This document shows positions 14,484-62,810 of a DNA stretch of 64,000 nucleotides, piece by piece. The position numbers were made by a program, and so were the translations under genes. The DNA lies in the NCBI GenBank assembly GCA_002368355.1, contig AP018281.1, positions 4,216,001-4,280,000 on the forward strand, written 5' to 3'. Source of the stretch: Chondrocystis sp. NIES-4102. Lineage in GTDB: Bacteria; Cyanobacteriota; Cyanobacteriia; Cyanobacteriales; Xenococcaceae. The notes beneath the pieces were generated by a model, which did no database searches, was not told the DNA's origin, and saw only the letters and a list, made by a program, of their open reading frames with translations. How positions within the stretch are numbered: the first letter of the stretch is position 1; the number at the start of each line of letters is the position of its first letter.

Positions 14484-14557
14484 GGCGGACGATGGGACTT
14501 GAACCCACGAATGGTGGTACCACAAACCACTGCCTTAACCACTTGGCTACGCCCGCC
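14484..14557 (-). tRNA. tRNA-His (anticodon GTG)
   Basis: The minus strand folds into a 74-nt cloverleaf beginning GGCGGGCGTAGCC. The anticodon loop TTTGTGG gives GTG, and the T arm contains GTTCAAG. The first G (14557) is position -1 and pairs with C73 (14484), the tRNA-His identity element. The acceptor stem is complete with one G-U pair. CCA is not encoded. Confidence 0.96.
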
Positions 14558-17689: not shown

Positions 17690-17763
17690 GGCTCGGTGGC
17701 TCAGTTGGTTAGAGCGGGGGACTCATAAGCCCTAGGTCGTCAGTTCAAATCTGACCCGAGCCA
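17690..17763 (+). tRNA. tRNA-Met (anticodon CAT, elongator type)
   Basis: A 74-nt cloverleaf starting GGCTCGGTGGCTCAG, with GCTC/GAGC D stem, anticodon loop CTCATAA, T loop TTCAAAT and a fully paired acceptor stem ending in A73. CCA is not encoded. The last anticodon-stem pair is A-G, a mismatch. The A:T-free G1-C72 pair favours an elongator; a lysidine tRNA-Ile cannot be fully excluded. Confidence 0.9.
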
Positions 17764-18179: not shown

Positions 18180-18252
18180 TACCCCCAAGGGAATTTGAAT
18201 CCCTGTCGCCTCCGTGAAAGGGAGGTGTCCTAGGCCACTAGACGATGGGGGC
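18180..18252 (-). tRNA. tRNA-Glu (anticodon TTC)
   Basis: The minus strand gives a 73-nt cloverleaf starting GCCCCCATCGTCTAGTGG. It has anticodon stem CCTCC/GGAGG around CTTTCAC, T loop TTCAAAT and acceptor ending TGGGGGTA. In cyanobacteria this tRNA also feeds tetrapyrrole synthesis through glutamyl-tRNA reductase. CCA is not encoded. Confidence 0.96.
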
Positions 18253-52839: not shown

Positions 52840-54180
52840 ATGTCAAAATTATCTCGTCGTAAATTTATTATTACTGCTGGTGCAACTGCTGCTGGTACTC
52901 TTTTGATGCACGGTTGTAGTTCATCTACAGAAACTACAGAAGAGGGGGCGCAATCTAATAGTAATACTCAACCTACAGCGCAACCAGTAGTTAATTTAAG
53001 TCCCGAAGAGACACCAGAAGTTACCACCGCCAAACTTGGATTTATTGCCTTAACTGATGCTGCACCTTTAGTAATAGCCTCAGAAAAAGGAATCTTTGCG
53101 AAATACGGAATGAGTGAGGTTGAAGTTTTAAAACAAGCTTCTTGGCCCGTAACTCGTGATAATTTGGAACTAGGTTCAGGTGGGGGTGGTATTGATGGGG
53201 CGCATATCCTTAGCCCAATGCCCTATTTAATGACTTTAGGAACAATCACCAAGCAACCTGTACCTATGAATATTTTAGCCAGGTTAAATACTAATGGTCA
53301 GGCAATTTCTGTTAGTAATGACTATCAGGATTTAAAAGTAGCTATAGATAGTTCCAAAATGAAAGATGTATTTACTAAAGCCAAATCTGAAAATGAAGAA
53401 CTAAATGCAGCTATTACCTTTCCTGGTGGTACACACGATCTTTGGATGCGTTACTGGTTGTCTGCTGGGGGTATTGATCCCAATAATGATATTTCTGTAA
53501 TTCCTGTACCACCTCCTCAAATGGTTGCCAACATGAAGATAGGAGGCATGGAGACATTTTGTGTGGGTGAACCTTGGAATGCTCAATTAGTTAACCAAAA
53601 ACAAGGTTATAGTGCTTTAGTTACAGGTGAACTTTGGAAAAATCACCCAGAAAAAGCCTTTGCTATGCGGGCTGATTGGGTAGAGCAAAATCCTAAAGCT
53701 GCTAAAGCCTTAACCAAAGCAGTTTTAGAGGCTCAACAATGGTGCGATAAGCCAGAGAACAAGCAGGAAATGTGCGAAATTGTTTCTCAGGATAAATGGT
53801 TTAAAGTTCCTGTAGAAGACATCATTGGCAGATTAGAAGGAAAAATTGATTACGGTGATGGCAGAACAGTAGATAATCCTGATATTTCAATGAAATTCTG
53901 GAAAGATAATGCTTCTTTTCCTTATAAGAGTCATGACTTATGGTTTTTAACTGAAAATATTCGCTGGGGTTATATTCCTGCTGACACGGATACAAAAGCG
54001 TTAGTGGATAAAGTTAATCGTGCTGATATTTGGCGAGAAGCTGCTAAAGCGATTAAAGTTGCGGATGCTGAAATTCCTCAAACTGATTCCCGTGGGGTTG
54101 AAACTTTCTTCGATGGGGTTAAATTCGATCCTGAAAATCCCAAGGCTTATTTAGATAGTTTGAAAATCAAAAAAGCTTAA
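52840..54180 (+). CDS. nrtA: Nitrate/nitrite-binding lipoprotein
   Basis: The substrate-binding component of the NrtABCD importer, tethered outside the cytoplasmic membrane. Residues 6-7 are the twin arginines of a Tat-type signal (SRRKFI), and the lipobox LLMHGC has lipidated C26. A low-complexity Ser/Thr/Gln linker follows. The core contains KLGFIALTDAAPLVIASEKG, EVLKQASWPVTRDN, GGGIDGAHILSPMPYL, FCVGEPW and SRGVETFFDGVKFDPENP, much closer to NrtA than to bicarbonate-binding CmpA as I remember those sequences. Length (446 aa) fits. First gene of nrtABCD; a 90-base gap separates it from nrtB. Confidence 0.94.
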   Translation: MSKLSRRKFIITAGATAAGTLLMHGCSSSTETTEEGAQSNSNTQPTAQPVVNLSPEETPEVTTAKLGFIALTDAAPLVIASEKGIFAKYGMSEVEVLKQASWPVTRDNLELGSGGGGIDGAHILSPMPYLMTLGTITKQPVPMNILARLNTNGQAISVSNDYQDLKVAIDSSKMKDVFTKAKSENEELNAAITFPGGTHDLWMRYWLSAGGIDPNNDISVIPVPPPQMVANMKIGGMETFCVGEPWNAQLVNQKQGYSALVTGELWKNHPEKAFAMRADWVEQNPKAAKALTKAVLEAQQWCDKPENKQEMCEIVSQDKWFKVPVEDIIGRLEGKIDYGDGRTVDNPDISMKFWKDNASFPYKSHDLWFLTENIRWGYIPADTDTKALVDKVNRADIWREAAKAIKVADAEIPQTDSRGVETFFDGVKFDPENPKAYLDSLKIKKA

Positions 54181-54270
54181 TTACTAATCTTTTAACCAAT
54201 GGTGGGCAATGCTCACCTAAATATATAACTAGCTCTACATTGACATCTTTTTCTTCACTTATTCTTCACT

Positions 54271-55113
54271 ATGACAGCTAATTTTGGTAATTCTCTAAAA
54301 AATTCTAAAAAGTCTAATTTCCTAACTTCCTTAATTAAAAATCCACCCAGAAAAATATTAGCCCCAATATGTGCAATTCTTTTTATCCTGACATTGTGGC
54401 AGGTTTTATGTAGTGGGGAAGATGCCAATTTACCCAGCCCTATTAAGACTTTTCAAGACACTTCTAATTTAATATTCGATCCATTTTTCGATAATGGCGG
54501 TACAGATAAAGGGTTGTTTTGGCAGATTATAGCCAGTTTACAAAGGGTAGCAGTTGGTTATAGTTTGGCTGCTATTGTCGGTATTGGTTTGGGAATTTTA
54601 ATTGGTTCTAATGCTTTTATGTATGATGCAGTAGATCCAATCTTTCAGGTATTAAGAACTGTACCACCTTTAGCTTGGTTGCCGATCGCTTTAGCTGCTT
54701 TTAAGGAAGCTAACCCCTCTGCAATTTTTGTAATTTTTATTACGGCAATTTGGCCAATCATTATTAATACTACGGTAGGGGTGCAGCAAGTTCCACAGGA
54801 TTATAAGAATGTCGCCAAAGTATTACATTTATCTGGATTTAAATATTTTTGGGAAATTATGTTTCCTGCTGCTGTTCCTTATATTTTTACAGGTTTAAGA
54901 ATTGGTATTGGTCTTTCTTGGCTTGCCATTGTAGCAGCAGAAATGCTAGTTGGTGGTGTTGGGATTGGTTTCTTTATCTGGGATTCCTATAACAGTTCTC
55001 GCTTGAGTCATATTATTGTCGCTTTGATTTACGTCGGTGTTGTGGGTCTGATTTTAGATCGCCTAGTAGCTTGGATTGCTTCTGTAGTAGTGCCTTCAGA
55101 ACAGCAACAATAG
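54271..55113 (+). CDS. nrtB: Nitrate ABC transporter permease
   Basis: The membrane channel of NrtABCD, 280 residues with six predicted helices. The ATPase-contacting EAA loop follows QQVPQDYKNVAKVL, with PPLAWLPIALAAFKEANPSA and IGLSWLAIVAAEML as conserved helices. The first 40 residues are cytosolic and basic. ATG 54271 starts MTANFGNSLKNSKKS. It follows nrtA and precedes nrtC by 64 bases. A related permease is at 58802, which belongs to the second module. Confidence 0.93.
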   Translation: MTANFGNSLKNSKKSNFLTSLIKNPPRKILAPICAILFILTLWQVLCSGEDANLPSPIKTFQDTSNLIFDPFFDNGGTDKGLFWQIIASLQRVAVGYSLAAIVGIGLGILIGSNAFMYDAVDPIFQVLRTVPPLAWLPIALAAFKEANPSAIFVIFITAIWPIIINTTVGVQQVPQDYKNVAKVLHLSGFKYFWEIMFPAAVPYIFTGLRIGIGLSWLAIVAAEMLVGGVGIGFFIWDSYNSSRLSHIIVALIYVGVVGLILDRLVAWIASVVVPSEQQQ

Positions 55114-55177
55114 ATAAAACCTAAAACTTTGTTCCTTAATTAATTGATCATTACTCATTACTGATTATTCAAAAATC

Positions 55178-57181
55178 ATGACGGCATTTCTTGAAGTAGA
55201 CCACGTAGATAAGGTATTCCCACTGGCTAATGGTGGTCAATATATCGCCTTAAAAAATATAAATTTAGAAATCAAACAAGGGGAATTCATTTGTTTATTA
55301 GGACATTCTGGGTGCGGTAAATCTACTCTACTAAATATCGTTGCAGGTTTAGATCGACCCACTCAAGGCGGAATCATTTTAGAAAACAAGCAAGTTCAAA
55401 AGCCAGGACCCGATCGCATGGTAGTCTTTCAAAACTATTCTTTATTACCCTGGAAGACAGTTAGACAGAATATTGCTTTGGCGGTAAACCAAGTTTACGG
55501 TGATAAATCAGTCCAAGAACGTAATGCCATTGTCGATCAACATATTGATCTGGTTAATTTACGTCATGCTGTTGATAAAAAACCTAATGAACTATCAGGA
55601 GGTATGAAACAACGGGTGGCGATCGCGCGGGCTTTGGCTATTCGTCCTAAATTACTCTTACTTGATGAACCTTTTGGGGCATTAGATGCGCTGACTAGAG
55701 GCAGTTTACAGGAACAGTTGATGAAAATCTGCCAAGAACACCGACTTACCTGTTTAATGGTCACCCATGATGCGGATGAAGCATTATTACTAGCAGATCG
55801 AATTGTAATGTTAACCAATGGGCCCCAATCCCATGTAGGTCAGATTCTGGAAGTTCCCATCCCTCGCCCCAGACAACGTTTAGAAGTAGTTAATCACCCT
55901 AGCTACTACTCCCTAAGAGGAGATATTGTTTATTTTCTCAACCAACAGAAAAAAGCTAAAAAACGTCAAAGTAAAGCACCTGCAATTATATCTGGTCATG
56001 GGCTAGAAAAAATTAATTTAGATATTGGTTTTGTTCCCCTAACCGACTGCGCCCCCCTGATAGTTGCTAAAGAAAAAGGCTTTTTTGCCAAAAACGGTTT
56101 AACTCAAGTCAATTTAGTTAGAGAATCCAGTTGGAAAGCGATCGCTGATGGTATAACTAGCGGTCATTTAGATGCAGCCCAGATGGTGGCTGGAATGCCT
56201 TTATCTCTATCTTTGGGTATGGGTGGTAGACCAGTTGCACCCACAGTTACCGCTTTAACTTTATCCCGTAATGGTAACGCTATCACCTTAAGAAAAAGTT
56301 TTTACGAACAAGGAGTGAGAAATTTAGCCGATTTTAAAGCAGCTATTAATCAAGATCAAGATCAGGTTCATACCTTGGGTATGGTACATCCCTCCTCAAT
56401 GCACAATCTGATGTTGCGTTATTGGTTAGCTTCAGGCGGAATCGATCCCGATCTCGACGTTAAACTTACTGTTATTCCACCACCACAAATGGTAGCTAAC
56501 CTCAAAGCTGGAAATATCGATGGTTTCTGTGTGGGTGAACCTTGGAATTCTCGCGCTGTTTATGAAAATCTTGGTTTTGTTATTGCTACCGACTTAGATA
56601 TTTGGCAAAGTCACTTAGAAAAAGTTTTAGGAGTGCGGGAAGATTGGGCAAATAAATATCCCGAAACTCATATTGCTTTGGTAAAATCCCTGATCGAAGC
56701 TTGTGAATATTGTGATGATCGTCGTCATCGTGAAGAGATTCTACAGTTAATCTGTCAACCGCAATATGTAGATTCCGCCCCAGAATATACTCGTCCAGGT
56801 TTTATCGATCCCTACCATCGAGGTACAGGCGAACCACCCCAAACTCTACTCAAATACAACGAATTTTATATTGATAAAACTAATTTTCCCAGTCGTGTTG
56901 AAGGACTATGGATTTTAGTGCAGATGGCGCGTTGGGGAATTGTTCCCTTTCCTCGCAATTGGATTGAAGTTTTAGACCGTGTTAGAAGGAATGATGTTTA
57001 CTCTGAAGCAGCCAGACAGTTGAATTTACCAGGTTTAGAACCAGAAAGACATTCTTTTAAATTATCCGATGGTAGCATCTTTAACCCCGATAACCCGATT
57101 GAATATCTGCAAAATCTCAAAATCAAACGGCAAATCAAGATAGAGGAAATTGTTCTCGATCCTTTGGTTTACCGTCGCTAG
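55178..57181 (+). CDS. nrtC: Nitrate ABC transporter ATPase fused to a substrate-binding-like domain
   Basis: NrtC joins an ATPase (about 1-255) with an NrtA-like domain (about 275-655) that senses nitrate and restrains uptake in the known cyanobacterial systems. Walker A GHSGCGKST (42-50), signature LSGGMKQR (139-146), Walker B LLLLDEP (159-165) and switch H197 are intact. The C-terminal half carries GFVPLTDCAPLIVAKEKG, FCVGEPW and IPPPQMVANLKAG, but no signal peptide, so it stays in the cytosol. Length 667 aa is normal. Co-linear with nrtB and nrtD. Confidence 0.95.
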   Translation: MTAFLEVDHVDKVFPLANGGQYIALKNINLEIKQGEFICLLGHSGCGKSTLLNIVAGLDRPTQGGIILENKQVQKPGPDRMVVFQNYSLLPWKTVRQNIALAVNQVYGDKSVQERNAIVDQHIDLVNLRHAVDKKPNELSGGMKQRVAIARALAIRPKLLLLDEPFGALDALTRGSLQEQLMKICQEHRLTCLMVTHDADEALLLADRIVMLTNGPQSHVGQILEVPIPRPRQRLEVVNHPSYYSLRGDIVYFLNQQKKAKKRQSKAPAIISGHGLEKINLDIGFVPLTDCAPLIVAKEKGFFAKNGLTQVNLVRESSWKAIADGITSGHLDAAQMVAGMPLSLSLGMGGRPVAPTVTALTLSRNGNAITLRKSFYEQGVRNLADFKAAINQDQDQVHTLGMVHPSSMHNLMLRYWLASGGIDPDLDVKLTVIPPPQMVANLKAGNIDGFCVGEPWNSRAVYENLGFVIATDLDIWQSHLEKVLGVREDWANKYPETHIALVKSLIEACEYCDDRRHREEILQLICQPQYVDSAPEYTRPGFIDPYHRGTGEPPQTLLKYNEFYIDKTNFPSRVEGLWILVQMARWGIVPFPRNWIEVLDRVRRNDVYSEAARQLNLPGLEPERHSFKLSDGSIFNPDNPIEYLQNLKIKRQIKIEEIVLDPLVYRR

Positions 57182-57245
57182 TCCCATTTTTCATTTAAGT
57201 CAGAATCTTGTTTAGTCCAAAACATCCATAACCCAATCTAATATC

Positions 57246-58088
57246 ATGCAAACATCCAACAGCACCATATCCCAACATATTTTTACTAAAGATACCGCTA
57301 ATTTCCTAGAGTTTGACGGCGTTGCTAAAATTTATCCCACTGCTAAAGGTAATTATACAGTTCTAGAAGATGTTAATTTAACCATCAACGAGGGAGAATT
57401 TATCTGTCTCATTGGTCATTCTGGTTGTGGCAAATCAACACTTTTAAGTATGGTATCGGGATTAAATAAACCGAGTTTAGGGGAAGTACGCCTCAAAAAC
57501 CAACCTATTGTCAAGCCAGGTCCCGATCGCATGGTGATCTTTCAAAATTATTCCCTTCTGCCCTGGAAAACTGCCTATGAAAATGTATATTTGGCTGTAG
57601 AACAAGTTTATAAACATAAATCTGTCCAAGAGAAAAAAGATATTACCCTAGAACATCTAGAACTAGTAGGCTTAGGGGAAGCGATGAATAAAAAACCTGC
57701 CCAACTTTCGGGGGGTATGAAACAACGGGTGGCGATCGCTCGTGCCTTGGCTACTCGTCCCGAAGTCCTCATTATGGATGAACCCTTTGGGGCTTTAGAT
57801 CCTATTACTAGGGAAGAAATGCAGGAGGAATTACTCAAAATTTGGCAAGATCATCGCTGTACAGTTTTAATGATTACCCATGACATCGATGAAGCCCTAT
57901 TTCTTAGCGATCGCTTGGTGATGATGACCAATGGGCCCTCTGCTAATATTGGCGAAGTTTTAGATATTCCTTTCCTGCGTCCGCGCAACCGTCAAAAAAT
58001 TATGGAAGATCCACGCTATTTTGAGTTGCGTAACTATGCCCTAGATTTCCTCTTCCGTCGCTTTGCCCACGATGACGCTTTGGAATAG
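57246..58088 (+). CDS. nrtD: Nitrate ABC transporter ATP-binding protein
   Basis: The second ATPase subunit of the importer, 280 residues without a binding domain. Walker A GHSGCGKST (57-65), signature LSGGMKQR (154-161), Walker B VLIMDEP and switch MITHDIDEA are all intact. N-terminal 20 residues are a variable extension. It closes the nrtABCD operon, 65 bases after nrtC. Immediately downstream an A-rich stretch and then a c-di-AMP-type riboswitch precede the next transcription unit, so nrtD is probably the last gene of its transcript. Confidence 0.93.
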   Translation: MQTSNSTISQHIFTKDTANFLEFDGVAKIYPTAKGNYTVLEDVNLTINEGEFICLIGHSGCGKSTLLSMVSGLNKPSLGEVRLKNQPIVKPGPDRMVIFQNYSLLPWKTAYENVYLAVEQVYKHKSVQEKKDITLEHLELVGLGEAMNKKPAQLSGGMKQRVAIARALATRPEVLIMDEPFGALDPITREEMQEELLKIWQDHRCTVLMITHDIDEALFLSDRLVMMTNGPSANIGEVLDIPFLRPRNRQKIMEDPRYFELRNYALDFLFRRFAHDDALE

Positions 58089-58185
58089 AAAAACAATTAG
58101 TTTTAAATTTGAAAAAAAAAACAGCACGATTGAAAAACGATTGACGCACAACATAAGTCTATACTATAATTAAATGTAAAATTTA

Positions 58186-58340
58186 AGAGTTCAGTCAGCC
58201 AAATTTTATCGTTTAGTTTAAATCATAAACCAGACAATAAAAACGGGGAAACCAATTTTGGGGCTTATTTCTACGAAAAATAGAAAGGGACATCTCTCAG
58301 TCCTAGCCCGTCAGCTAACCTCGTCGGCATTGAGAGGAGA
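58186..58340 (+). ncRNA. c-di-AMP (ydaO/yuaA-type) riboswitch, copy 1
   Basis: A conserved aptamer in the leader of the second ABC module. Blocks match the known ydaO class: ACGGGGAAACCAA followed by TTTTGGGGCTTA (58243 onwards), GGGACATCTCTCAGTCC (58288 onwards) and CCCGTCAGCTAACCTCGT (58307 onwards). The loop CTCTCA (58294..58299) can pair with TGAGAG (58331..58336), mirroring the known pseudoknot between the P-loop and the 3' tail. Copy 2 at 62629 shares 19 identical bases at the 5' edge and nearly the whole 3' core. It lies 142 bases before the SH3-like gene. No clear terminator follows, so translational or downstream control is possible. Confidence 0.85.
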
Positions 58341-58481
58341 TTGAAGAGGCAAAATAAATATATTTAATATTTTATAGTTCTCATCAGTATCCTTGGTTAC
58401 TAACTGCTCTATACATAAATTCAACCAAACTTGCTAATGGTAAGTTGCGGTTATAGCTAGTTATCAGGAGAATCAAATATA

Positions 58482-58706
58482 ATGTTTAACTTGAGCGATC
58501 GCGTTCGCAATCAAATCACAGCAGATATCGGTATTGTTGTAGGTTATGGATATTATTTAGCCAACAATAATTATTCCCCAACAATTAAAGTCAGAATTAC
58601 CAGCCCCACGACAACTACAAGCGCAACTGTAGAAGATATATTTAGTAATTGGTGTTTTTACCCAAAAGAAGACAGCAAATACGCTTCAACGCTGATACAC
58701 TGCTAA
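58482..58706 (+). CDS. Small SH3-like protein
   Basis: A 74-residue protein beginning MFNLSDRVRNQITADIGIVV, with YSPTIKVRI and EDIFSNWCFYP later. The pattern resembles small cyanobacterial SH3/KOW-like domains seen in several regulatory or accessory roles. A GGAG site (near 58468) precedes ATG 58482. It is the first gene after riboswitch copy 1 and precedes the permease by 95 bases, so it is probably co-transcribed with the ABC module. Function unknown. Confidence 0.7.
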   Translation: MFNLSDRVRNQITADIGIVVGYGYYLANNNYSPTIKVRITSPTTTTSATVEDIFSNWCFYPKEDSKYASTLIHC

Positions 58707-58801: not shown

Positions 58802-59635
58802 ATGAATCTATCTACTTTTGCCCTAGCTAGTCAAGCTGCGTGGAAACAAATCAAACCAATAGTTATAAGAGACACATTCCTATTTCCTTTAGCAGGTTTT
58901 GCTGGGTTAATTGCCATCTGGTGGGCGATCGCTTTATTCCGTCCAGAATTAATGCCAACTCCACCACAAGCACTAATGGAAAACCTTGATTACATTCTCC
59001 ATCCATTCTATCGTCGGGGTCCTGGAGATCTGGGGTTAGGATGGTTACTACTTGCCAGTCTGAGAAGGGTAATTATTGGCTTTCTGCTTGGGGCGATGGT
59101 AGCAATTCCTGTAGGATTTCTCATTGGGATGTCTCGCCCTGCCTTACTCGCAATTAATCCAGTAATTCAAGTCCTCAAGCCCGTTTCTCCCCTCGCTTGG
59201 CTACCTATTGCCCTAGCTATTTTTAATATTGCCGATCCGTCAGCGATTTTCGTAATTTTTATCACTTCTCTGTGGTCAACGATTATCAATACAGCTTTAG
59301 GAGTATCTAGCGTCCCCAAAGATTATCAAGATGTAGCCCAAATGCTAGAAATGCCAGCTTGGAAAAAAATCATCAAAATAATTTTACCTGCAAGCTTACC
59401 CTATATCTTTACAGGGTTACGTATCAGTTTAGGAATTGCCTGGTTAGTAATTGTTGCCGTAGAAATGCTTACAGGGGGAATTGGGATCGGTTTCTTTGTC
59501 TGGGATGAATGGAGTCGTCTTAACCTAAGTTCAGTATTTTTAGCCGTTTTTGTCATTGGGGTAACTGGTTTAATTCTTGACTATCTTTTAGGGATAGTGG
59601 AAACATTGATAACTCATCGTCCTGCCCGATCCTAA
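58802..59635 (+). CDS. NRT-family ABC permease of the second module
   Basis: A 277-residue permease of the NrtB/TauC family with six helices. Conserved sequences include SPLAWLPIALAIFNIADPSA, SSVPKDYQDVAQMLEMP and MLTGGIGIGFFVWDEW. It is clearly homologous to NrtB but distinct. A SBP gene follows at 23 bases and an ATPase at 48 after that. The substrate may be nitrate/nitrite, cyanate, taurine/sulfonate or bicarbonate; the sequence alone does not say. The transcript probably starts upstream of riboswitch copy 1. Confidence 0.9.
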   Translation: MNLSTFALASQAAWKQIKPIVIRDTFLFPLAGFAGLIAIWWAIALFRPELMPTPPQALMENLDYILHPFYRRGPGDLGLGWLLLASLRRVIIGFLLGAMVAIPVGFLIGMSRPALLAINPVIQVLKPVSPLAWLPIALAIFNIADPSAIFVIFITSLWSTIINTALGVSSVPKDYQDVAQMLEMPAWKKIIKIILPASLPYIFTGLRISLGIAWLVIVAVEMLTGGIGIGFFVWDEWSRLNLSSVFLAVFVIGVTGLILDYLLGIVETLITHRPARS

Positions 59636-59658: not shown

Positions 59659-61059
59659 ATGAATCACAAAATCAAACGTCGAGCCTTTTTACAAGGTTTA
59701 GGGACGAGTGTTTCCGCGATCGCTTTATCTAGCTGTGCTGTCAGTGGAAGTAAAGCACCCAAAACCCTATCGGCAGAAGCCTTAGCAGTCGAACCAATAG
59801 TTAAACCCGAAAGCTTAGAAAAACCCAACCTCACCATCGGCTATGTCCCTGTTAATGATTGCGCCCCATTTGCGATCGCTTGGCAAAAAGGTTTTTTTCG
59901 TAAGTATGGTTTAAACGTAACATTAAGTCGCGAAGCCAGTTGGGCAAACTCCCGTGATGGGGTGATCTTTGGTCGTTTAGATGCCTCCCCCGTAGTTTCA
60001 GGGGCTGTAATGAATGCAAGAGCAGGTGCAGAAGGCGCGCGTCATGCCCCGTTGTGTGCTGCTATGACTATTCACCGTCACGGTAACGCGATGACTATGA
60101 GTAAGGAACTTTGGGATGCAGGTATTCGCCCTTGGCAAAGTTATCAAGGAAATTTAGAACAATTTGGGCGTGATTTTGATGGTTATTTTCGTCAAGCTCC
60201 CCCAGAAAAGCGATCTTTAGCAGTGGTTTTAAGTTCTGCAATATATGAATATTTTGTGCGCTATCTCATCGCAGCTACAGGCTTAAATCCAGATGAAGAG
60301 TTTCGCATTATGATTACTCCCCCACCCCAAATGGTTAGTAATATGCGTATTGGGGCAATGCAGGCTTATATGGTGGCAGAGCCTTGGAACACTAGGGCAA
60401 TTTCTGGTAATGAAGGTATTGGCTTTACTTTCGCCCAAGGGAGAGAAATTTGGCGCGGACATCCCGATCGCGTTTTGGCGGTAATGGAATCTTTTATTAA
60501 TGAAAATCCTAAAACCTATCGTTCTTTAGTTAAAGCGATGATCGAAGCTTGTCAATATTGTAGTAAGCCAGAAAATCGCCCAGAAGTAGCTAAAATTCTT
60601 TCAGAACGTTCCTATACTGGGGCAAAGCCTAATATAACTAGTGCTGGCATTGTCGGTAATTATAATTATGGTGGTTTTGATGATCAACAACGAATTGTTA
60701 ATGATATAGCTACAACTATCTTTTACGATTTACCTACGGAAGTTTCCAATATTCCTTACGACCATTCCACCTTTTTATGGCAGTCGCAAAACCTTTGGTT
60801 AATGACTCAAGCAACACGTTGGCAACAAATTGAGAAGTTTCCTAAAAATGCCGAGGAAATAGCTCGTACAGCTTGGCGTACTGATTTATATCGCCAAATT
60901 GCTGATGAGATGGGTATTAAATGCCCTACGGATGATTATAAAGTCGAATCTGCTGAGGCATTTATTGACGGGCGATCTTTTGATCCAAGTGATCCTGTTG
61001 GTTATCTTAATAGTTTTGAGATTAGAGCTAAAGCACCTCGTTCTTTTTTTATGTCTTAA
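59659..61059 (+). CDS. NRT-family substrate-binding lipoprotein of the second module
   Basis: A 466-residue binding protein with a twin-arginine start (KIKRRAFLQG), lipobox ALSSC with C26 and a Ser/Pro linker. The core contains LTIGYVPVNDCAPFAIAWQKG, MVSNMRIGAMQAYMVAEPW and RTDLYRQIADEMGIKCP, similar to NrtA yet changed at many positions. Compared with NrtA the stretch around residues 95-190 has different lengths and substitutions. It ends RAKAPRSFFMS. The gene order permease, binding protein, ATPase differs from nrtABCD. Substrate unknown; cyanate (CynA-like) is one candidate. Confidence 0.88.
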   Translation: MNHKIKRRAFLQGLGTSVSAIALSSCAVSGSKAPKTLSAEALAVEPIVKPESLEKPNLTIGYVPVNDCAPFAIAWQKGFFRKYGLNVTLSREASWANSRDGVIFGRLDASPVVSGAVMNARAGAEGARHAPLCAAMTIHRHGNAMTMSKELWDAGIRPWQSYQGNLEQFGRDFDGYFRQAPPEKRSLAVVLSSAIYEYFVRYLIAATGLNPDEEFRIMITPPPQMVSNMRIGAMQAYMVAEPWNTRAISGNEGIGFTFAQGREIWRGHPDRVLAVMESFINENPKTYRSLVKAMIEACQYCSKPENRPEVAKILSERSYTGAKPNITSAGIVGNYNYGGFDDQQRIVNDIATTIFYDLPTEVSNIPYDHSTFLWQSQNLWLMTQATRWQQIEKFPKNAEEIARTAWRTDLYRQIADEMGIKCPTDDYKVESAEAFIDGRSFDPSDPVGYLNSFEIRAKAPRSFFMS

Positions 61060-61992: not shown

Positions 61993-62484
61993 ATGGTAAA
62001 AATCTTGTTGTCTTTGCTGATTTGTTTGATTACTACTTTTAATTTTTTAATTGAGCCTGTGGCTGCCAAATTAATTACCCAAAATGATCCAGCAATTTTA
62101 GTTTGTTTTTCTGGTGGTCAAGAAATTGCTAGAAAAACTGTTGTTGCAGGTCCTTTTGCTGATGAGTATAAATTTGCTCACGAGGTTAAAGTAGTAGATT
62201 CTATGGGAGAACATCAGTTAAATTTTGCAGGGGGACTTTGTATTATTGACCAAGGTGCAGCAACTATTAAAAATAAACTAGAGTTAAGCGATCGCCTTGT
62301 TTGTTATTCGGGTGCAAAACCAGTAGTTAATTTTGAGGTTTATGGTGCTGAAACTACCGTTGATGAATATCTCGAAGGTAGAACTTTTGTAGCTAAGTCT
62401 ACGGGAGGTAATCTTAATTCAGATTCGCTTCATCGTTATTTGATCTTCGGTGGTGGGGCTTGTTTGGGATCGGAAATAGAATAG
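61993..62484 (+). CDS. Exported protein with internal duplication
   Basis: A 163-residue protein not recognised as a known family. Residues 1-25 are a signal peptide (basic start, hydrophobic core, VAA cleavage). The mature part appears to be two copies of one module: LVCFSGGQE and GGLCII in the first half (C38, C83), then LVCYSGAKP and GGGACLG in the second half (C104, C157). The matched cysteines suggest one disulfide per repeat. It lies directly downstream of the second ABC module on the same strand and could be an extracytoplasmic accessory or reporter of substrate. Start ATG 61993. Confidence 0.75.
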   Translation: MVKILLSLLICLITTFNFLIEPVAAKLITQNDPAILVCFSGGQEIARKTVVAGPFADEYKFAHEVKVVDSMGEHQLNFAGGLCIIDQGAATIKNKLELSDRLVCYSGAKPVVNFEVYGAETTVDEYLEGRTFVAKSTGGNLNSDSLHRYLIFGGGACLGSEIE

Positions 62485-62628
62485 GTATTTCTCGCAAAAG
62501 TTTCTTAATTTATAGTATTTAAAATATCGCGATCGCAGCTAATTACATCTCGTCAATCATCTAAAAAAATATATGAACATGATTGACAAATTATTAATAT
62601 TAATTTAGAATAATGTCAATTTAATATT

Positions 62629-62784
62629 AGAGTTCAGTCAGCCAAATCTTGTAGTTAAGTTGGTAATTTCAAGCTTGACTTTAGAACGGGGAAACCAAAA
62701 TTGGGGCTTATTTTTATGAAAAGGTAAAAATGGACATCTCTCAGTCCTCGCCCGTCAGCTAACCTCGTAGGCATTGAGAGGAGA
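62629..62784 (+). ncRNA. c-di-AMP (ydaO/yuaA-type) riboswitch, copy 2
   Basis: Nearly the same aptamer as copy 1. The 5' edge (19 bases from 62629) is identical, then ACGGGGAAACCAA with TTGGGGCTTA, GGACATCTCTCAGTCC (62732 onwards) and CCCGTCAGCTAACCTCGT (62751 onwards) are present. CTCTCA (62738..62743) can pair with TGAGAG (62775..62780). It precedes the transporter gene at 63299 by about 515 bases, with a terminator-like hairpin at 63156 and a decayed palindrome in between. The class binds c-di-AMP and usually turns transport or osmolyte genes off. Confidence 0.85.
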
Positions 62785-62810
62785 TTGCAAGAGTAGCATA
62801 TGAAAGTATA

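Follow-up and report, generated by a model that had tools for sequence, protein, structure and literature searches.

The locus described here lies in a window of 64,000 nucleotides, by which we mean the whole stretch of Chondrocystis sp. NIES-4102 DNA that was analysed. It holds an nrtABCD operon and, on the same strand, a c-di-AMP riboswitch aptamer (aptamer 1), a 74-aa ORF, the permease, binding-protein and ATPase genes of another ABC importer, the gene of a 163-aa protein, a second riboswitch aptamer (aptamer 2), and a permease gene of the CitMHS type that continues past the end of the window (Table 1). Neither the nrtABCD operon nor aptamer 2 had been mentioned in the preliminary description of this DNA. 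Three tRNA genes are also present in the window, at 14484-14556 (−), 17690-17763 (+) and 18180-18252 (−). Past the window, the CitMHS gene is followed by the gene of a sodium/hydrogen-exchanger family protein with a Usp domain (L033:10852-13005), which is of the CPA2 type with a score below the NCBIfam cut-off, and then by that of a CorA protein (L033:13571-14707), so that one meets an ion-transport island there.

Table 1. Features of the locus, in coordinates of the window.
Feature	Position	Strand	Basis or remark
nrtABCD operon	52840-58088	+	NrtA, NrtB, NrtC, NrtD
NrtA	52840-54180	+	627 bits against 2G29 (solved nitrate protein), 419 against CmpA
NrtB	54271-55113	+	NCBIfam
NrtC	55178-57181	+	NCBIfam
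NrtD	57246-58088	+	Pfam ABC_tran and position
Promoter-like site TTGACG-18-TATAAT, upstream of aptamer 1	58141-58170	+	11/12 consensus positions
c-di-AMP riboswitch aptamer 1	58186-58340	+	RF00379, 5′ box, fold
Predicted hairpin directly 3′ of aptamer 1	58334-58394	+	MFE fold, z-score −0.90
74-aa ORF	58482-58706	+	no Pfam or NCBIfam match
ABC permease, NtrB type	58802-59635	+	TIGR01183, 236.3 bits (cut-off 209.05)
Substrate-binding protein, NMT1_2 family, third NRT-type clade	59659-61059	+	Pfam, tree, pocket W-N-Y-R
ABC ATPase, NtrCD type, 275 aa	61108-61935	+	TIGR01184, 363.2 bits (cut-off 291.8)
163-aa protein, no family assigned	61993-62484	+	homologue adjoins CitMHS in G198
Promoter-like site TTGACA-17-TAGAAT, upstream of aptamer 2	62583-62611	+	11/12 consensus positions; count not above shuffles
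c-di-AMP riboswitch aptamer 2	62630-62785	+	RF00379 match 62662-62788
CitMHS/ArsB-type permease, 449 aa	63299-64000, continuing past the window (L033:9300-10649)	+	Pfam and NCBIfam searches

When the whole 64 kb was searched with the Rfam model RF00379 (gathering score 38), aptamer 1 was matched at 58218-58344 on the forward strand with 65.5 bits (E 6.2e-13), and aptamer 2, also on the forward strand, with 64.6 bits (E 1.1e-12). Both matches span the whole model (1-134/134), and the genome of 5.0 Mb yields no further RF00379 match at E ≤ 0.001. The proposal of a ydaO/yuaA-class riboswitch at 58186-58340 is thus confirmed by the model search. The two pseudoknot strands noticed at the same time, CTCTCA (58294-58299) and TGAGAG (58331-58336), can both be read from the sequence, and the corresponding strands are also present in aptamer 2. 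The two aptamers share 79% identity in an alignment of 165 columns. The MFE fold of aptamer 2 pairs the pseudoknot strands with each other, unlike the P1 fold obtained for copy 1.

Regarding the boundaries of aptamer 1, the Rfam 5′ end is misregistered, the long P2 being misaligned by the model. In the MFE fold of 58190-58339, P1 is formed by GCC 58198-58200 with GGC 58326-58328 and is accompanied by a long P2. A 5′ box (GTCRGCYHART), which 62 of the 75 ABC-module leaders contain, begins at 58194 in aptamer 1. Since both P1 and the 5′ box start upstream of 58218, the true 5′ end of aptamer 1 lies near 58186-58194, and 58186-58340, the interval originally given, is a better boundary than that of Rfam. 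Among the 62 box-bearing leaders, the Rfam start trails that of the box by at least 10 nt in 31.

The non-standard P1 pairs in the Rfam 5′ alignment might be taken to mean that the aptamers are chance or decayed matches. This is exceedingly improbable in view of the E-values of both copies, the re-registered P1 and long P2 of copy 1, the intact pseudoknot strands, and an orthologous aptamer position that is kept in 74 of 87 relatives (see below). Aptamer 1 is an ordinary c-di-AMP riboswitch, with ligand binding itself predicted from the sequence. It resembles the rest of its class in the whole-model match above gathering, the pseudoknot strands and the position in a leader before transporter genes, but differs in the long P2 that shifts the Rfam 5′ boundary, in the NRT-type ABC target, and in that no intrinsic terminator is seen. 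The genome encodes one gene with a diadenylate cyclase domain (PF02457), so c-di-AMP is presumably made in the host itself.

A promoter-like site precedes each of the two aptamers. Because the counts of such sites are not above those in shuffled sequences (2 observed vs 3.2 in shuffles in the scan of the aptamer 1 region), we regard both sites as suggestive at most. As for the expression platform, no terminator-like site was found between aptamer 1 and the genes, terminators are not in excess in the leaders of the relatives (5 of 75 vs 6.7 expected), and RNAalifold, run on the 75 leaders, predicted no shared structure 3′ of the aptamer. The MFE hairpin test, on the other side, was passed by 53 of 75 ABC leaders, 11 of 35 CitMHS leaders and 17 of 37 others; it says little, because 50 of 75 downstream control stretches pass a looser form of it. 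At the hairpin site, a CTGA..TCAG motif occurs in 43 of 75 leaders compared with 1.7 by mononucleotide shuffle (the window has TTGA), and covariation of this motif could not be shown, because its inner pairs are in register in 143 of 258 cases vs 145 of 258 when slid by one. Known c-di-AMP riboswitches mostly reduce expression upon ligand binding, and by analogy, binding of c-di-AMP should lower the expression of the genes downstream.

These downstream genes include all the components of an NRT-type ABC importer, namely a permease, an ATPase and a binding protein of the NMT1_2 family, in accordance with the first description of them and with the Pfam and NCBIfam searches. The binding protein starts with a twin-arginine and a lipobox-like motif, as judged by eye; its nearest solved relatives are CmpC/NrtC, CmpA and NrtA, and its AlphaFold model has a mean pLDDT of 53.5. 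The 275-aa ATPase contains ABC_tran only, without the C-terminal regulatory domain of NrtC. We propose that this complete importer, from permease through binding protein to ATPase, is encoded by one operon with aptamer 1 in its 5′ leader.

The 74-aa ORF had been called SH3-like, a label for which neither Pfam nor NCBIfam gives any support. Distant homologues of this ORF follow riboswitches in the sister genome G198 and in Pleurocapsa CCALA 161; in G198, the homologue is located between a c-di-AMP aptamer and CitMHS, and the ABC module is on another contig (L034:5994-6296, L188:994-1296). In the window, the permease starts 457 nt after aptamer 1, with the 74-aa ORF in between, and this gap counts against the operon reading. 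One may then ask if aptamer 1 controls the 74-aa ORF only, with the ABC genes under a promoter of their own, since the ORF is the first gene behind the aptamer, and its distant homologue in G198 follows a riboswitch with CitMHS next. However, in 61 of 75 leaders the aptamer and the refined permease start are 73-145 nt apart, a distance into which a further gene would hardly fit, and control restricted to the small ORF is quite unlikely. Control of the whole importer operon by aptamer 1 is the reading that we retain.

The link between aptamer and importer was also checked in the reverse direction. Relatives of the binding protein were ranked in 388 genomes of the class, with at most four candidates per genome, and the 87 best-ranked rows of this longer ranking were taken as clade members, with the lower rows excluded. 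In 74 of these 87 best-ranked members, an RF00379 aptamer closely precedes the module in the same orientation, and the permease gene separates it from that of the binding protein, so the position of the aptamer in a leader before a same-strand gene is conserved. In two others (G127, G263) the aptamer is further upstream and a glycosyltransferase gene is situated between it and the module, and in four (G198, G123, G051, G177) the upstream region is cut by contig ends. In the remaining seven (G199, G007, G151, G108, G136, G178, G275), which count against our interpretation, no RF00379 was found upstream, longer stretches included; the contig of G007 extends just 1.3 kb upstream of the module. 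The 75 leaders used throughout include one with an aptamer from outside the 87 (G029, L206).

For comparison, 30 control loci obtained with an NrtA query, including two distant relatives (L226, L227), were scanned with an aptamer-core pattern rather than with the covariance model, and none of them contained it; the same pattern recovers 64 of the 75 model-confirmed leaders. Among the best 80 of 273 named loci, permease and ATPase genes of the window type accompany the binding protein in all 80, an aptamer is found upstream by the pattern in 70, a Usp-like gene follows the ATPase in 34 (its likeness to the cluster CL0 described below was judged by eye), and CitMHS is near the module in 29. The named loci include those of Pleurocapsa (91% identical), Nostoc, Calothrix, Scytonema and a Microcystis MAG. 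The pairing of this riboswitch with such an importer had been considered unusual, a view that cannot be upheld when 74 of the 87 best-ranked members have an aptamer before the module. A literature search, covering titles and abstract openings and not extending to the earlier gene lists of the class, returned nothing that joins an RF00379 riboswitch with an NRT-type transporter. What is new is a conserved third NRT-type lineage that is usually under this riboswitch, and not the control of a nitrate importer by a riboswitch.

When 86 binding proteins were placed in a tree, the clade members grouped together and were separated from NrtA, from CmpA and from the NrtC/CmpC regulatory domains. The tree is from a quick search with long-branch warnings, 17 identical rows having been dropped to leave the 86, and its groups were labelled by the best-scoring anchor. 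Support for the clade is 100 (30 rows), or 94 when the long-branched outlier row L226 is included, and that for the NrtA group is 49. Within the nitrate/bicarbonate (NRT) family, the importer is a third lineage in cyanobacteria.

To compare the pockets, we used the columns of NrtA positions 102, 155, 196 and 269, with K269 placed at HPEK by residue numbering. The clade has W-N-Y-R (31 rows, with Tyr in 30 and Arg in 30), NrtA has W-Q-H-K (24 rows, with His at 196 in 21 and Ser in 3), CmpA has W-N-Q-E (9 of 9 rows), and CmpC has W-N-H-K (8 of 8), as does NrtC for the most part (14 rows). We take W102 and Q155 to be functional residues of the nitrate site of NrtA. PMC8786288 describes K269 and H196 as balancing the charge of nitrate in NrtA, with CmpA using calcium instead.

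The module is related to two known systems and distinct from both. Like NrtABCD (2G29, 8W9M), it comprises a permease, an NMT1_2 binding protein and an ATPase of the same families, and it keeps W102, but the nitrate-site residues Q155, H196 and K269 are replaced by N, Y and R, its ATPase is a single plain one lacking the fused regulatory domain of the NrtC type, and it is under riboswitch control. With CmpABCD (2I48, 9U9Z) it shares the family and the Asn at position 155, but the Glu at the K269 position and the Gln at 196 are Arg and Tyr in the clade, and there is no CmpC-type fusion. A basic residue is kept at 269, which suits an anion. That this residue is kept and the rest of either site is not argues for, but does not prove, an anion other than nitrate or bicarbonate, or a related small solute, as the predicted substrate.

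These residues also bear on whether the module could be a true nitrate, nitrite or bicarbonate importer, in which case c-di-AMP would directly control nitrogen or inorganic carbon uptake. The permease and the ATPase do exceed the NCBIfam nitrate cut-offs, calls that count against our interpretation, the nearest solved relatives of the binding protein are the nitrate and bicarbonate proteins named above, and the module is located behind nrtABCD. Yet the replacement of the three nitrate-site residues holds in at least 30 of 31 rows per column, the Gln and Glu of CmpA are absent, the genome already has NrtABCD and a further A-type/C-type pair at C1:661614-665906, and none of 107 sampled aptamers has a gene of the nrtABCD or cmpABCD type as its nearest recognised gene. 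We thus consider such an importer unlikely. Within the nrtABCD operon itself (52840-58088), no Rfam family was matched, so no riboswitch is present there. Of the earlier suggestion of a nitrogen- or anion-family importer, the relatedness to the NRT family stands; nitrogen or bicarbonate as the substrate finds no support, since the pocket lacks the residues of NrtA and CmpA, and an NrtABCD operon adjoins.

The NMT1-like family also serves sulfonates and taurine, and it is conceivable, if rather doubtful, that the module imports an organic sulfonate, taurine or another zwitterionic osmolyte, with c-di-AMP limiting the uptake of compatible solutes. In favour of this idea is the glycosyltransferase encoded between aptamer and permease in G127 and G263 (L348:585-1907; L349:2410-3705 (−)), whose closest solved protein, with 459 bits, is Tll1590, which we take to be a sucrose-phosphate synthase. 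However, this glycosyltransferase is under all NCBIfam cut-offs among the matches listed, the best being MshA (282.1, cut-off 462.5), with the sucrose-phosphate synthase domain at 119.7 (cut-off 576). The range of the family, exemplified by NrtT in PMC5623697, also favours an osmolyte, as does the statement in PMC3766115 that many different transporters, possibly all with a part in osmoregulation, are under the ydaO-yuaA riboswitch. On the opposite side, the SsuA-family model gives the binding protein 29.6 bits against a cut-off of 163.5, and the basic residue and the tryptophan of a small-oxyanion site are kept in the clade. For the reading that we prefer, the cargo would most likely be an anion or a small osmolyte other than nitrate or bicarbonate.

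We have also looked at the targets of these aptamers across cyanobacteria. RF00379 is present in 196 of the 388 genomes of the class, as surveyed with stricter filters, and 107 RF00379 loci from 100 genomes, taken from the score-sorted matches listed, served as the target sample. The nearest recognised gene is the module permease for 32 aptamers, CitMHS for 35, a gene of the 74-aa type for two, a lone ATPase for one, and another gene for 37. The two 74-aa-type cases are that of the window, with the module next, and that of G198, with CitMHS next; altogether, 33 of the sampled aptamers stand before the ABC module (that of the window via the small ORF) and 36 before CitMHS. A Usp-like gene of about 200 aa (cluster CL0) is among the first ORFs in 29 of the 37 other cases, and a Pfam search with one similar protein (L314:8523-9338) gave Usp as the best match, at 20.6 bits with a cut-off of 24. 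This Usp-like family is a third frequent riboswitch target in the sample. In G164, a cobalamin riboswitch (L203:1592-1789) was found close to the c-di-AMP aptamer.

The gene after aptamer 2 belongs to the CitMHS family and has a c-di-AMP riboswitch upstream, in which it resembles slr0753 of Synechocystis. Slr0753 is presumably a CitMHS-family protein, and the comparison is one of family, not of sequence orthology; a difference is that the CitMHS permease of the window is paired with an ABC module. In PMC10117731, with reference to earlier papers, slr0753, a putative chloride efflux transporter, is reported to be controlled by a c-di-AMP riboswitch, so aptamer 2 and the CitMHS gene seem to repeat a known arrangement; the mutants behind the assignment are recounted in PMC9896922. 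Aptamer 2 would control the neighbouring CitMHS permease, apparently of the same family type as Slr0753, and the two riboswitch units may together form a c-di-AMP-controlled cluster for ion and osmotic balance. The preliminary description had instead seen a fit to c-di-AMP in carbon and nitrogen signalling. The other targets in the sample of 107 aptamers, CitMHS and the Usp-like genes, suit ion and osmotic homeostasis better, and we favour this role because of the Slr0753 case, the glycosyltransferase in G127 and G263, and the above statement of PMC3766115 on osmoregulation.

Taken together, the evidence makes it probable that aptamer 1 leads the operon of a third-lineage NRT importer for an anion or small osmolyte, not nitrate or bicarbonate, and that this unit, together with aptamer 2 and the CitMHS gene, constitutes a c-di-AMP ion/osmotic cluster. 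A role of c-di-AMP in potassium balance is known. Only tentatively, we suggest that the third NRT-type importer takes up an anion, which might be chloride or some other counter-ion of potassium, and that its level is set by c-di-AMP riboswitches jointly with that of a CitMHS putative chloride exporter, which would amount to an anion balance at the RNA level matching the potassium role of c-di-AMP.

If our interpretation is correct, a widely conserved transporter whose permease and ATPase are of the NCBIfam nitrate type carries something else, and the riboswitch would offer a handle on the substrate of this importer. Besides cation and osmolyte balance, c-di-AMP would then also govern an anion importer, and this would help to explain the few target gene families that the riboswitch has in the phylum, as seen in the sample of 107 aptamers.
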